From a virus: a stretch of DNA of 27,310 nucleotides. Location: IMG/VR virus record IMGVR_UViG_3300044825_002862, positions 1 through 27,310 of that record, one strand, 5' to 3'. Position 1 is the first letter of the stretch, and every line of letters begins with the position of its first letter. A program made the translations under genes and the position numbers. Under the pieces are notes generated by a model, which did no database searches, had not been told where the DNA came from, and saw only the letters and a program-made list of their open reading frames with translations. Positions 4,461 through 26,894 of this stretch are shown piece after piece.

Positions 4461-4468
4461 TATTTATA
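4461..4468 (-). promoter_or_regulatory. Late promoter for the GIY-YIG endonuclease
   Basis: The minus strand reads TATAAATA, a perfect T4 late consensus. It follows directly after the T-tract of the psbA terminator, and its last base is 25 nt before the endonuclease ATG. The endonuclease can therefore be expressed late and independently of psbA. Confidence 0.7.
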
Positions 4469-4471
4469 AAA

Positions 4472-4494
4472 AAAGGACCCTTTTGGGGTCCTTT
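4472..4494 (-). terminator. Rho-independent terminator after psbA exon 2
   Basis: A 9-bp stem AAAGGACCC/GGGTCCTTT with a 5-nt loop is followed by seven T on the minus strand. It lies 26 nt after the true psbA stop codon in exon 2, which supports the spliced gene model. Confidence 0.92.
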
Positions 4495-4520: not shown

Positions 4521-5858
4521 TCAACCAATTGCAGGAGCAGTAAGAGCAACTGGAGTTGCTTCTGCTGCGGCAAGGTCAAGAGGGAAATTGTGCAATTGTG
4601 TTATCGTAAAGACTTTTTATTCTTTACTTCTTACTGTCGCCAGTAAGTTCAGACTATCTCTTCATCCTTAAGGTTATTAAGGAGTCGGGCATTCGTGGGT
4701 GGATTATTGTTGGGACTCACCACCTAGTCGTTAGACCTTCCAGAAAACTTAAACCCTTTCTGGCTTGGTACGGGATTGTCTCATAGAGAGTTTCCCCGTT
4801 TAACCCGATTTTACTAATGCCTATTACTAGGCAACAACACCAACAAATCTAGCGTTGCGCTCGTGCATTACCTCCATTCCTAGGCCAGCACGGTTTAGAA
4901 CATCAGCCCAAGTGTTAAGAACTTTACCCTGACTATCCATAATGGACTGGTTAAAGTTAAAGCCATTCAAATTGAAGGCCATAGTAGAAACACCGAGAGC
5001 AGTAAACCAGATACCAACTACTGGCCACGCCGCTAAGAAGAAGTGGAGTGAGCGAGAGTTGTTAAATGAGGCATACTGGAAAATAAGGCGACCAAAGTAA
5101 CCATGAGCGGCTACAATATTGTAGGTTTCTTCTTCTTGTCCAAACTTATAACCATAGTTTTGACTTTCATTTTCAGTAGTTTCTCGTACAAGACTTGAGG
5201 TTACTAGTGAACCATGCATAGCACTGAAGAGTGAACCACCAAATACGCCAGCCACACCCATCATATGAAAAGGATGCATGAGGATGTTGTGCTCTGCCTG
5301 GAACACAAGCATGAAGTTGAAGGTTCCAGAGATTCCGAGAGGCATACCATCAGAGAATGAACCCTGACCGAAAGGATATACCAGGAATACCGCAGAAGCA
5401 GCAGCAACAGGTGCTGAGTATGCTACGCAGATCCAAGGACGCATTCCAAGACGATAGGAAAGTTCCCACTCACGACCTAGGTATGCATAGATACCGATGA
5501 GGAAGTGGAAAACAACGAGTTGGTAAGGACCACCGTTGTAGAGCCATTCGTCTAGACTTGCTGCTTCCCAAATAGGATAGAAGTGCAGACCGATTGCGTT
5601 GCTAGAAGGAACAACAGCACCAGAGATGATGTTGTTACCGTAGAGAAGTGAACCAGCAACAGGTTCACGAATGCCGTCAATGTCTACAGGAGGTGCAGCA
5701 ATGAAGGCAACGATGAAGCAAATAGTAGCAGCAAGTAGGGTTGGGATCATGAGAGTTCCGAACCAACCAACATAAAGTCGATTGTCAGTGGAAGTAACCC
5801 ACTGGCAAAACTCTTCCCAAGCACTACCTTGCTGCTTACGAGCGATTGAAGCAGTCAT
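4521..5858 (-). CDS. psbA: Photosystem II D1 protein, interrupted by a group I intron
   Basis: D1 binds P680, the manganese cluster and quinone QB, and is the fastest-turning-over photosystem II subunit. Exon 1 is 4851-5858 (336 codons) and exon 2 is 4521-4592 (23 codons plus stop). Joined, they encode 359 residues, the normal D1 length. Exon 1 ends MEVMHERNA (A336) and exon 2 begins HNFPLDLA, restoring the conserved D1 tail without a change of frame. Residue 130 is Glu, as in high-light D1 forms. A 15-residue tail follows A344, where the C-terminal protease would cut. Unspliced, exon 1 runs into a stop after seven intron codons (RFVGVVA) and lacks the manganese ligands H337, D342 and A344. 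GGAG lies about 13 nt before the ATG. A sigma70-type promoter lies upstream and a terminator downstream. Confidence 0.98.
4593..4850 (-). ncRNA. Self-splicing group I intron in psbA (258 nt, no ORF)
   Basis: The boundaries follow the group I rule: the 5' exon ends in U (AACGCU) and the intron ends in G. Intron bases 10-16 (GGUGUUG, 4841-4835) form a guide that pairs with exon CAACGCU over seven positions, with the required U·G pair at the splice site, closing a 9-nt P1 loop. R-like (UCUAACGACUAGG) and S-like (AGAGAUAGUCUG) elements are present. Their GACUA (4729-4725) and UAGUC (4656-4652) halves form P7. A 7-bp P9-like hairpin with a GCGA tetraloop lies at 4647-4630. No reading frame fits inside, so mobility would depend on an endonuclease supplied from elsewhere. 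Confidence 0.93.
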
Positions 5859-5939: not shown

Positions 5940-5968
5940 AGTATAATACGAAACGCTTTGGGCGTCAA
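5940..5968 (-). promoter_or_regulatory. Sigma70-type promoter of psbA with -35 in a hairpin loop
   Basis: TTGACG (5963-5968) and TATACT (5940-5945) are separated by exactly 17 nt, with five of six matches to each consensus box. The -35 box sits at the loop of a short GC stem (GGGC/GCCC, 5960-5963 and 5969-5972) a few bases after the stop codon of the gene upstream. The predicted leader is about 75 nt. A host-type promoter implies psbA can be transcribed by host RNA polymerase before the late phase. Confidence 0.75.
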
Positions 5969-5974
5969 GCCCCC

Positions 5975-6433: not shown

Positions 6434-6464
6434 AAACTCTGCCTCTTATTTAGAGGCAGAGTTT
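6434..6464 (-). terminator. Rho-independent terminator after the peroxiredoxin gene
   Basis: A perfect 12-bp stem (6434-6445 with 6453-6464) closes a 7-nt loop and is followed on the minus strand by a run of T. It begins 20 nt after the peroxiredoxin stop, and the next gene starts ten bases beyond it. Confidence 0.92.
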
Positions 6465-7345: not shown

Positions 7346-7866
7346 CTTTTTTCTCCAATAATAGTTTTTTAAAATTGTAAGTGATTTTTTCCAACTCTTC
7401 AAGTGTTGCATCATTTTTAATTTGATTTGCTCTATGAGATATTACCCATATATTATCTGGAGTATATCCCATTTTGCTATCAATTCGGTCTAGAGAAGGA
7501 GTATATTCCCTGTCTCCAATAGCAAGTTCTCTATTTAACAGGGGACAAATTTTTGGAATTTTTATATCCTCAACTTGTATAGAAAAATTCTAATCCTTTT
7601 TTAAGGGCACGTTCTTGTGCCGATTTCCACATTCTATATTCTTTAGTATTGGATATTCCACCAGCAGATGCTCTTTTGCATCCACAAGATTTAAATCTTC
7701 CACTTTTTAATTTGCAAGATTCAACAACAACTACTTTAGAATTTCCACAGTCACATTTACATTCATAATAACTTCTTTTTCTTCCATTAGGTTGTTCTAT
7801 TAAAGAATGTCCAACTACTGTTAGCATCCATATTTTATCACCAATATTGAATGTTTTAGTTCTCAT
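7323..7866 (-). pseudogene. HNH homing endonuclease with a single-base frameshift
   Basis: The N-terminal part (7866 to 7570, 98 codons) has the Cys-rich start of phage HNH endonucleases, YECKCDCGNSKVVVVESCKLKSG..CGC and EYRMWKSAQ. It then stops early. Dropping one T in the run of five at 7583-7587 (minus strand) lets GLEF continue as SIQVEDIKIPKICPLLN, then PSLDRIDSKMGYTPDN and VISHRANQIKNDATLEEL, the HNH nuclease core, ending at 7323. The repaired protein is 180 residues, a normal length. It may be a recent pseudogene, a site of programmed frameshifting or a sequencing error. The gene lies between the two hli genes. A hairpin with an embedded late promoter covers its start. Confidence 0.85.
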
Positions 7867-7912: not shown

Positions 7913-7972
7913 TTAACGAACTAAAGAAATTGCAATAAACAATAATATACACCCAATAGAAAGATACGCCAT
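7913..7972 (-). CDS. Possible 19-residue membrane peptide coupled to hli
   Basis: The stop of the upstream hli gene overlaps this ATG as TAATG. The frame encodes MAYLSIGCILLFIAISLVR, a single hydrophobic helix with a terminal arginine. Coupling to hli and location in a photoprotection block suggest a small thylakoid peptide, but I recognise no family and the length is at the edge of what can be called. Confidence 0.35.
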   Translation of the reverse strand: MAYLSIGCILLFIAISLVR

Positions 7973-8166
7973 TAAAAGACACCGAAGAAGAAGTTACCAG
8001 TTATTGCATATGAAATAAATCCACATACAATACCAATCATAGCCCATCTGGAATTGGTCCTTTCCTTGATTTCGTTTGGGGAATACATCCCGTAGTTTTC
8101 ATAATACATCGTTGGTTCTTTAGCAAACATATTCATTTGCCCGAACTCATTTTTTGTTACAGTCAT
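7972..8166 (-). CDS. hli: High-light-inducible protein (Hli), 64 residues
   Basis: The motif ERTNSRWAMIG (from E35) matches the chlorophyll-binding ExxNxRxAMIG signature and is followed by one membrane helix, IVCGFISYAITGNFFFGVF. The N-terminal 34 residues are polar, as in longer Hli proteins. It is the first gene after the strong sigma70-type promoter at 8193-8221, with a predicted leader of about 20 nt. The ribosome site is weak. Together with the 40-residue Hli it would bind chlorophyll near photosystem II and quench excess energy. Confidence 0.92.
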   Translation of the reverse strand: MTVTKNEFGQMNMFAKEPTMYYENYGMYSPNEIKERTNSRWAMIGIVCGFISYAITGNFFFGVF

Positions 8167-8192
8167 TCGTTTTGTAACGATTTACAACAGAA

Positions 8193-8221
8193 TTATATAG
8201 CAAAAAGAAAGGGGCGTCAAG
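8193..8221 (-). promoter_or_regulatory. Sigma70-type promoter of hli with -35 in a terminator loop
   Basis: TTGACG (8216-8221) and TATAAT (8193-8198) are spaced by exactly 17 nt, close to the ideal promoter. The -35 box lies across the loop of the terminator that closes the glycan cluster, and the T-tract of the terminator is the promoter spacer. Confidence 0.85.
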
Positions 8222-8229
8222 CCCCTTTG
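8209..8229 (-). terminator. Terminator ending the glycan cluster
   Basis: An 8-bp stem AAAGGGGC/GCCCCTTT closes a 5-nt loop, followed by CTTTTTG on the minus strand. It lies 29 nt after the stop of the GT25 gene. Confidence 0.88.
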
Positions 8230-8258: not shown

Positions 8259-9053
8259 TTACTGATTTTGTTGTTGAGTTGGTTCAGAAATTCTACCAAG
8301 ATATGGATCATAATCCATTAAGAAATCAATACTTAAATCATATCCTTGATTTTCCCAAAACTTAAGTAGACCTTCATAATTTGCCTTATGAAAAATATCA
8401 ATATGTTCTGGATGAATAGAAGAACCTAATTCAATTTTATAAAGGAAAATAGGAATTGCGTAAGTATTTCCAGAATTGTAAATTAAATCATCAGCAACTG
8501 CTCTTGGTCTTACACCTTGATCTAATTTATACTTATCTCCACGAACATGAAACTTTAAAAGTTTTTCAGCATGATGACGAGTAATCATATATGCTGCTGT
8601 TGAAAAATCATTCACAAATCTTTTATGAATTCTAACGTGAATATTTCCTGTAGAAATAATGGCAAGTTGAACGACATCCCAATCGTAAGGAATTTTAGAT
8701 ACAAAATCTTGCCAAGTAAAATTCCAAAATTTTACAGTTTGAAAGTTAACATCATCTTCCATTATAATTGCATATGGAGAATCAGAAGTTTCATACCAAT
8801 GTTTAATTGCTTTAAGATGTGAAGTCGTACATCCTATTTCACTAGTAGTCATATTATCAGGATATTTTCCTTTAATGATGTCACTCAAATCATCATTGCG
8901 ACCATCATAGGCAGAAATTCTTGTATAATTTTCAATACTCCAGTATTTAAATTGTTCCTCCATATAGTCTTTACGTTCTGGTTGATCATCCAGATTTAGA
9001 TAATAAATTGGAGGTAGATTTTTTAATTTATAAAGAGATTTGTTTTTATCCAT
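8259..9053 (-). CDS. Glycosyltransferase family 25 (LPS-type) protein
   Basis: The 264-residue product shows the GT25 pattern: IYYLNLDDQPERKDYMEEQF near the start, GCTTSHLKAIKHW in the middle, and IIMEDDV, whose acidic pair is the metal and nucleotide-sugar site. Later GVRPRAVADDLIY matches the second acidic region. GT25 enzymes add galactose or glucose to lipopolysaccharide cores or proteins; the donor here is unknown. No membrane segment is seen, so the enzyme is likely cytoplasmic. It is the last gene of the cluster, one base after the GT11 gene, and is followed by the terminator. Confidence 0.88.
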   Translation of the reverse strand: MDKNKSLYKLKNLPPIYYLNLDDQPERKDYMEEQFKYWSIENYTRISAYDGRNDDLSDIIKGKYPDNMTTSEIGCTTSHLKAIKHWYETSDSPYAIIMEDDVNFQTVKFWNFTWQDFVSKIPYDWDVVQLAIISTGNIHVRIHKRFVNDFSTAAYMITRHHAEKLLKFHVRGDKYKLDQGVRPRAVADDLIYNSGNTYAIPIFLYKIELGSSIHPEHIDIFHKANYEGLLKFWENQGYDLSIDFLMDYDPYLGRISEPTQQQNQ

Positions 9054-25956: not shown

Positions 25957-26454
25957 TCAATTATTCTTTATTGAATACTTTTCTAATAATTCTGGAGAGT
26001 ATTGCTGAATATCTTTAATATTTTTTTCTTCCCTTTTTACAGTTTCAAGGTCATAAACTCTATTCCTGAGTTCAGTAGTAGAGTATTGATGTCTCCTCTT
26101 GTGATAATAAATTTCTATACCATTATCAATACAATATTGCTTTCCAGTAACTTCAACATCCCTATATTCTTCACTTAAAAATCGAATGTGGAAAGTTTGA
26201 GTTTTGATTAGATTGAGAAGATCTGCCTCCGTATCATAAACAAGAATTTCATCAACATATTTACATCCCTGTATTTGTGCATATCTTTCGTAAATTGACT
26301 GAACTGGTTTATTTTTTAAACCAGGTCTATCTACAGTAGGATCAACTTGAAGTGCTACTTTTAAATAATCACACATTTCTTTTTCCATCTTAAGCATTGT
26401 AACATGCCCGGCATGAAAAAGATCAAAACAACTACAATTAAATCCTATTTTCAT
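25957..26454 (-). CDS. Cytidylyltransferase-like protein (TagD family)
   Basis: The 165-residue product has FNCSCFDLFHAGHVTML, with the HxGH nucleotidyl-transfer motif, and HQYSTTELRNRV near residues 125-135, matching the (I/Y)STT second motif of the glycerol-3-phosphate cytidylyltransferase fold. It would couple a phosphate ester to CTP or a similar nucleotide. Glycerol phosphate, ribitol phosphate and heptose phosphate are all possible substrates. It is the first gene after the cluster promoter and has a C-terminal extension of about 30 residues. The ATG at 26454 is used. Confidence 0.85.
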   Translation of the reverse strand: MKIGFNCSCFDLFHAGHVTMLKMEKEMCDYLKVALQVDPTVDRPGLKNKPVQSIYERYAQIQGCKYVDEILVYDTEADLLNLIKTQTFHIRFLSEEYRDVEVTGKQYCIDNGIEIYYHKRRHQYSTTELRNRVYDLETVKREEKNIKDIQQYSPELLEKYSIKNN

Positions 26455-26472: not shown

Positions 26473-26501
26473 ATTATACTAAAAAAGATGGGTTTATGCA
26501 A
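26473..26501 (-). promoter_or_regulatory. Sigma70-type promoter of the glycan cluster with -35 in a terminator loop
   Basis: TATAAT (26473-26478) is perfect, and TTGCAT (26496-26501, four of six matches) lies exactly 17 nt upstream, spanning the loop of the terminator at 26484-26510. It is 18 nt before the first gene of the cluster. No comparably good promoter was seen inside the following 18 kb. Confidence 0.7.
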
Positions 26502-26510
26502 CCCATCTTT
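26484..26510 (-). terminator. Terminator upstream of the glycan cluster
   Basis: An 11-bp perfect stem AAAGATGGGTT/AACCCATCTTT closes a 5-nt loop and is followed by TTT on the minus strand (six T in all). It touches the stop codon of the 40-residue frame at 26509-26511, ending the small-gene group to the right. Confidence 0.88.
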
Positions 26511-26631
26511 ATGTGCTCAGGCTCGCCACCAATTCTTTGACTGGAAATTGGAAACCAGGCGGGAGTATTCTCCATCCGCACCACTTGCTCTTTAAGGAAG
26601 CAAGAAACCTTGAAGGGTCATTTGACTCCAC
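26509..26631 (-). CDS. Possible 40-residue protein with a GTG start
   Basis: The frame is open from about 26687 to the TAA at 26509-26511, which meets the terminator exactly. The GTG at 26631 would give a compact protein with SNDPSRFLASLKSKWCGWR, PPGFQFPVKEL and ASLST. It is rich in tryptophan, proline and charged residues and looks more protein-like than the other two frames, but no good ribosome site precedes the GTG and no family is recognised. It overlaps no other supported gene. Confidence 0.45.
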   Translation of the reverse strand: MESNDPSRFLASLKSKWCGWRILPPGFQFPVKELVASLST

Positions 26632-26642
26632 CAGTATAAGTT

Positions 26643-26894
26643 TTACGTCATTCCAGGACTGTGATAAAGTTGCATTAACTTAGAAATCTCAGTGATTCCA
26701 AAAAATACACACAGGAATAATACATCCCATAATTTAAGTTTTATAGCAAATGGAACAGTGAGTAACCCACCAATACATTTGATAATCAAACCATTTTTAA
26801 AATCTCCCCATAGCATAGTTTGATAACCAACTATAAGAAGAATGTTTCCAAGATATCGCAAGATACCTTCTTTGGAGATAAAGGGGGTTTTCAT
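26643..26894 (-). CDS. Small membrane protein of unknown function
   Basis: The 83-residue product from the ATG at 26894 (a GTG lies one codon upstream) has a short polar head KTPFISKEGILRYLG followed by about three hydrophobic stretches (LLIVGYQTMLW, LIIKCIGGLLTVPFA, LFLCVFFGITEI), so two or three membrane helices. It ends HSPGMT at the repeated element described in the findings. No family is recognised. Confidence 0.6.
   Translation of the reverse strand: MKTPFISKEGILRYLGNILLIVGYQTMLWGDFKNGLIIKCIGGLLTVPFAIKLKLWDVLFLCVFFGITEISKLMQLYHSPGMT

Follow-up and report, generated by a model that had tools for sequence, protein, structure and literature searches.

Predicted terminator-promoter composites with the -35 box in the hairpin loop at gene borders of T4-like cyanophages

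Introduction

In Escherichia coli, the promoter-attenuator of ampC overlaps the terminator of frd, and this terminator is situated downstream of the promoter start and acts as an attenuator. In T4-like phages, the PeSL (promoter-early stem-loop) cassettes, reportedly described by Arbiol et al. in 2010, contain stem-loops that are said to terminate transcription. The initial annotation of the DNA analyzed here knew of no named description for such a joined terminator and promoter. This was mistaken, as the promoter-terminator composites of T4-like phages bear the name PeSL in the title of Comeau et al. (2014) as it is cited in PMC4503421. The citing paper itself, devoted to the cyanophage S-PM2, discusses PeSLs and found few of them in the region studied (PMC4503421). 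PeSL-like motifs made of a promoter and an inverted repeat also precede many genes of the haloarchaeal virus HGTV-1 (PMC3950731). Another element that is relevant to the present locus is wcaG, a riboswitch candidate of T4-like cyanophages proposed to regulate exopolysaccharide or high-light genes (Weinberg et al., 2010, PMC2864571).

Here, we analyzed a 27.3-kb virus fragment, the whole of which is called the window. Its closest annotated relatives are T4-like cyanophages (Kyanoviridae), with S-SRM01 at the top. Nearly all long ORFs are carried by the minus strand, and they include psbA with a group I intron, hli genes, a peroxiredoxin gene, a run of glycosyltransferase-type genes and a cytidylyltransferase-like gene. 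The initial annotation had reported one design, a hairpin whose loop holds the -35 box, at three gene-block borders (psbA, hli and 26.5 kb). All three sites were found where it had placed them, each read on the minus strand (Table 1). The common design holds at hli and at 26.5 kb, both of which have a strong hairpin and a T-run, but not at psbA, where a plain promoter is found.

Results

Features of the window

Table 1. Predicted features at the three borders (positions in the window; hairpin loops in square brackets).
Feature	Position	Strand	Basis or content
psbA promoter	5940-5968	-	-35 TTGACG 5963-5968, 17-nt spacer, -10 TATACT 5940-5945
4-bp inverted repeat GGGC[TTGAC]GCCC over the psbA -35 box	5960-5972	-	without U-tract; probably not a terminator
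hli gene (high light inducible protein), which the hli composite would start	7972-8166	-	phrog_178
hli composite, promoter	8192-8220	-	-35 TTGACG 8215-8220, 17-nt spacer, -10 TATAAT 8192-8197
hli composite, U-tract CTTTTT within the promoter spacer	8202-8207	-	sequence
hli composite, terminator hairpin AAAGGGGC[TTGAC]GCCCCTTT	8208-8228, loop 8216-8220	-	folding and orthologous sites
Glycosyltransferase family 25 gene, with a transcript predicted to stop at the hli composite	8259-9053	-	PF01755
Cytidylyltransferase-like gene, which the third composite would start	25957-26454	-	PF01467
Third composite, promoter	26473-26501	-	TTGCAT 26496-26501, 17-nt spacer, TATAAT 26473-26478
Third composite, terminator hairpin AAAGATGGGTT[GCATA]AACCCATCTTT, then T-run	26484-26510	-	folding, covariation
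wcaG RNA (RF01761)	26515-26612	-	95.9 bits; 3' end 4 nt before the third-composite hairpin

Several other elements lie on the minus strand of the window. A group I intron (RF00028) splits psbA at 4630-4860, and the last part of D1 follows at about 4523-4597. Downstream of psbA, a terminator hairpin at 4461-4494 has a U-tract that runs into a T4-type late promoter, TATAAATA, which represents a second class of composite; across cyanophage contigs, the stretch 1-9 nt ahead of TATAAATA is strongly enriched in hairpin ends relative to other positions. A 13-bp terminator at 6434-6464 comes after the peroxiredoxin gene and precedes TATATTATG; relatives contain further hairpins of this type, with AGTATTATG-like ends and no -35-like sequence in the loop. 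An HNH endonuclease-like ORF (phrog_374) is inserted between hli genes at 7570-7866.

Hairpins and promoters are coupled in sequence beyond chance

The broader sample comprised 160 contig loci around psbA and peroxiredoxin genes, taken from viral_contigs, with identical sequences removed. At the 1053 promoter-like sites of these contigs, hairpin centers peak on the -35 box, with 87 in one 4-nt bin against 0-24 in the other bins, although the contigs, being related, do not give independent counts; all of them were sampled around photosynthesis genes. When the search starts from terminators with TTGAC at the loop, a -10 box matching at least five of six positions stands at a loop-to--10 distance of 19-22 in 53 of 61 distinct cases, against 0-4 at any distance outside this range; a looser rule raises the number to 55 of 61. 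The 1084 terminators without TTGAC display a smaller rise of -10 boxes at a distance of 18-23, with degenerate -35 boxes. The initial annotation had proposed a comparison with shuffled DNA, in which an equal frequency would speak against the design. Equality was not found, because 86 composites with TTGAC in the loop were observed against 3, 1, 0, 1 and 1 (hence 0-3) in five sets of sequences with dinucleotides shuffled in 300-nt blocks. The composite design exceeds chance, while the psbA copy does not.

The elements are placed between genes and are not bound to one gene family. The genes that come after the 89 distinct elements fall into 32 clusters, or about 30 unrelated genes; two of the clusters have no downstream ORF in the sequence stretch used. 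The T-run follows the hairpin with at least four T in the first six nucleotides in 73 of these 89 elements. Genes behind composites include hli and psbA, together with others that we take, from recognized sequence, to encode a ThyX-like thymidylate synthase, a sliding clamp and a clamp-loader subunit. IMG/VR was also scanned with a pattern that is blind to hairpins (TTGAC-N10-TTTT-N4-TATAAT), and this returned 84 promoter-like sites, with a hairpin on the -35 box in 27. The ORFs were mostly like those of T4-like reference phages at 17 of 24 typed hairpin loci, compared with 7 of 56 other loci.

Composites are present in S-PM2, S-SRM01, P-SSM2 and contig G003. A universal cyanophage feature was rejected, as hairpins on the -35 box are missing from Syn9 and HTVC008M, and S-CRM01 has a single one without a T-run. 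An origin of the design in the host was likewise rejected, since 1.4 Mb of cyanobacterial chromosome around psbA genes gave no hairpin peak, most of the sampled hosts not being marine picocyanobacteria.

Stems covary around fixed promoter boxes at hli and 26.5 kb

A G+C-rich hairpin followed by a U-tract, the mark of an intrinsic terminator, is found in both the hli and the 26.5-kb copies, whose regions fold more stably than shuffled sequence (z -2.96 and z -3.93, respectively). Orthologous hli promoters were picked by their downstream protein and promoter, without regard to hairpins, and 49 of 66 proved to have the hairpin, about a quarter being without it. Among distinct sequences it occurs in 44 of 60, compared with 25.9 after swapping of 3' arms (sd 2.3, maximum 32, 300 shuffles); swapped arms still pair often (26 of 60), as G-runs lie opposite C-runs. 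The boxes TTGAC and TATA.(A)T hardly change among these promoters, in contrast to the variable arms. No Rfam match was obtained at the hli composites of 11 loci.

At the third site, the hairpin is present in 46 of 49 orthologous sequences, against 14.5 after arm swapping (sd 2.7, maximum 23). Changes on both sides were seen in 6 of the 11 pairs of the stem, and the covariation score of 0.438, compared with 0.213, was matched by none of 500 shuffles. The TTGCAT of the window matches TTGACA at only three of six positions, and the orthologues have TTGACA, TTGACT or TTTACA in its place with the 17-nt spacing kept, which is the behavior expected of a -35 box in the loop. Two details of the proposed design need correction. 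The hexamer does sit at the tip of the hairpin, but its last base or bases already belong to the 3' arm. Similarly, the spacer has the proposed 17 nt, but it is made up of the remaining 3' arm together with the U-tract, and not of the run after the stem alone.

The psbA site is an ordinary promoter

The 4-bp repeat, whose shortness the initial annotation had already pointed out, is the sole hairpin on the psbA -35 box, and the bases that follow it, AAAGCGTTTCG, form no U-tract. Shuffling does not weaken the fold of the 53-nt region (z 0.23; 109 of 200 shuffles were as good), and the 4-bp hairpin is absent from its minimum-energy fold. Thus, the psbA copy does not display the G+C-rich hairpin and U-tract of an intrinsic terminator. 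In related phages, psbA is preceded by a TTGAC-N17-TATNAT promoter whose distance to the start codon is mostly 150-185 nt, compared with 81 nt in the window. A hairpin on the -35 box was found in only 3 of 87 distinct psbA upstream regions having a promoter, and psbA was rejected as a conserved composite site on this count.

The initial annotation had suggested that the psbA copy may be a decayed form of the composite. Intact composites upstream of psbA in three loci (L007, L067 and L132) favor such decay, as do the 14 bases that the psbA and hli copies have in common; this exact sharing, claimed in the initial annotation, is borne out by the 14-mer GGGGCTTGACGCCC present in both. However, GGGGC-TTGACG is also common at psbA promoters in relatives with neither a hairpin nor a matching C-rich arm, so that the identity conveys little information apart from the final CCC and the 14-mer appears to be mostly a recurrent psbA promoter motif. 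The rarity of the hairpin at the psbA promoters of relatives, the missing T-run and a folding score about zero also argue against decay, which we regard as unlikely; the repeat is indistinguishable from chance. The psbA site, at 5940-5968, is an ordinary promoter. In several relatives, psbA and its promoter are separated by a PhotoRC-II RNA (RF01717), for example at 9866-9960 of L007; no match to this family was obtained in the window, where the psbA leader is about 80 nt.

The composite at 26.5 kb follows the wcaG RNA

The wcaG RNA occupies the same place next to the third composite in 20 of 20 related loci. The hairpin starts 3-15 nt past the end of the wcaG model in 17 of 18 loci, and in L408 the search picked another hairpin. 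S-SRM01 and contig G003 also have a composite of this kind after wcaG, and there the downstream genes are different. In S-CREM1, wcaG is directly followed by a TTGACA-N17-TATAAT promoter with a hairpin of at most 4 bp, before a tRNA. In all cases examined (the window, L398-L424, L221, L273 and L556), a promoter was seen a few bases after wcaG, usually in a terminator hairpin.

A conserved promoter between wcaG and the gene would place wcaG outside the mRNA starting there, and this calls the reading of wcaG as a 5' leader into question. The third composite is, by prediction from the sequence, the 3' boundary of the wcaG RNA, upstream of the predicted mRNA start. The wcaG RNA may form the tail of the transcript that precedes it, may be a free RNA, or may control a terminator bypassed by a second promoter. 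The view that wcaG is a tail or a free small RNA and not a 5' UTR, which forms part of the joint reading of geometry given at the end of this paper, has in our estimate an even chance of being right. A different role would have the third-site hairpin serve as the terminator platform of the wcaG candidate riboswitch, with the TATAAT behind it belonging to a secondary promoter. The short distance from wcaG to the hairpin in most orthologues fits this role, as does the listing of wcaG among the riboswitch candidates of T4-like cyanophages (PMC2864571). Nevertheless, with a consensus-like promoter placed after the terminator, downstream transcription would escape such control, and S-CREM1 has its promoter directly after wcaG with hardly a hairpin. 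In a crude complementarity test, the terminator 5' arm scored 16.3 with its own wcaG against 16.1 with that of other phages, and no conserved anti-terminator pairing between wcaG and the terminator arms was seen. A platform role is rather improbable.

Upstream of wcaG, at 26613-26660 on the minus strand and in the orthologues, the wcaG pattern repeats, with a short hairpin and then TGGTGGAGTCA. It looks as if the structured wcaG RNA were longer than the Rfam model and built of repeated units.

Discussion

The sequences at 8192-8228 and 26473-26510 are very probably terminator-promoter composites with the -35 box in the loop, the psbA site being a promoter of the usual kind. As double-stranded DNA, TTGAC(N)-N17-TATAAT would serve as a promoter for the host RNA polymerase carrying its main sigma factor. 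In transcripts arriving from the upstream gene, the element would fold into a G+C-rich hairpin whose loop holds the -35 core, and upstream transcription would end at the U-tract that fills the promoter spacer. As the hairpin is located upstream of the predicted start point, it would never be part of the downstream mRNA and would act for the upstream transcript only. The outcome would be a border of less than 40 nt that ends one gene block and starts the next. Sequence statistics and covariation strongly favor this dual reading, put forward in the initial annotation, at hli, at 26.5 kb and at dozens of related sites, but they do not support it at the psbA copy.

An inverted repeat at a promoter can also be explained at the level of DNA. 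Palindromes over -35 boxes are typical operators, and a regulator binding such a palindrome would control the promoter without any RNA hairpin. Many hli stems, with G-rich left arms and C-rich right arms, would agree with an operator; but the stem sequences vary widely between sites, even within one genome, they contain G-U pairs, and they covary pair by pair, which a fixed binding site would not need. The T-runs, moreover, lie on the correct side for a terminator. The operator palindrome was rejected on the covariation and the T-runs and is, in our judgment, very improbable. Even less credible is a hairpin that acts as DNA, as an extruded cruciform or a single-strand hairpin promoter like the early promoters of phage N4 or those of the F plasmid leading region. 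The hairpins of these promoters provide recognition bases for special polymerases or are located in single-stranded DNA. The location of the inverted repeat at a promoter is what this explanation has in common with the present elements, which nonetheless keep consensus -35 and -10 boxes at 17-nt spacing and have T-runs after the stem.

A more serious possibility is that dense packing is all there is: genome economy would join terminator and promoter with no interplay beyond insulation, and the -35 box would end up in the loop because only loop bases are free. The compactness of T4-like genomes and the fusion of terminators to late promoters as well, with TATAAATA directly after the U-tract, are in its favor. 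It is compatible with the terminator-promoter composite preferred here and denies only an extra coupling, for example a re-use of the terminating polymerase; the 17-nt spacing, too, suits both views. We consider packing without such interplay a balanced proposition.

The composites provide a compact, searchable and testable rule for the ends and starts of cyanophage transcription units. They would be natural insulators of less than 40 nt, stopping one unit and starting the next, in phages whose hosts are without Rho (PMC13289151). The conserved promoter between wcaG and its gene also bears on whether this riboswitch candidate is to be read as a 5' leader.

Several described systems resemble the composites in part. 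In ampC/frd, the terminator of one operon likewise overlaps the control region of the next, but this is a single case with the terminator 3' of the promoter start and no -35 box in the loop. The motifs of HGTV-1 share a conserved promoter and an inverted repeat, the promoter being of the archaeal TATA-box type. For wcaG, the third composite directly follows the RNA, yet the family model ends before the hairpin, so that the composite is outside the described motif; it also occurs without wcaG.

The closest likeness is to PeSLs, which are reported to be likewise short composites, joining a stem-loop to a sigma70-type promoter in T4-like phages where plastic gene blocks meet. A sigma70-type promoter overlapping a stem-loop in a T4-like phage is what the hli copy, the 26.5-kb copy and dozens of related sites display. 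In RB49 (L164, L173-L180), it is the spacer separating the -35 and -10 boxes that holds the hairpin, centered at about +11, and the 12 sites have near-identical arms, shared GGGGATC-type sequences, and no U-tract. In KVP40 (L252-L264), seven sites have the -35 box in the left arm of the hairpin and the center at +4 to +5. Unlike both, the cyanophage elements have the -35 box in the loop (center -2 to 0), a U-tract as the spacer and site-specific stems. The hairpin position measured in RB49 and KVP40 is not found in them, nor are near-identical recombinable copies within a genome: stems differ in every genome with at least two copies, the 14-mer of psbA and hli in the window being the one exception to this divergence. 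Thus, the kind of element, PeSL, is already known, and the loop geometry, which differs from those measured in RB49 and KVP40, would be new as long as no such geometry is listed in the PeSL papers. On this comparison, it is an evenly balanced proposal, the boundary reading of wcaG included, that T4-like phages have written a terminator into a promoter at least three times, with different geometries, and that in cyanophages the -35 box in the loop has been jointly selected as DNA and as RNA.
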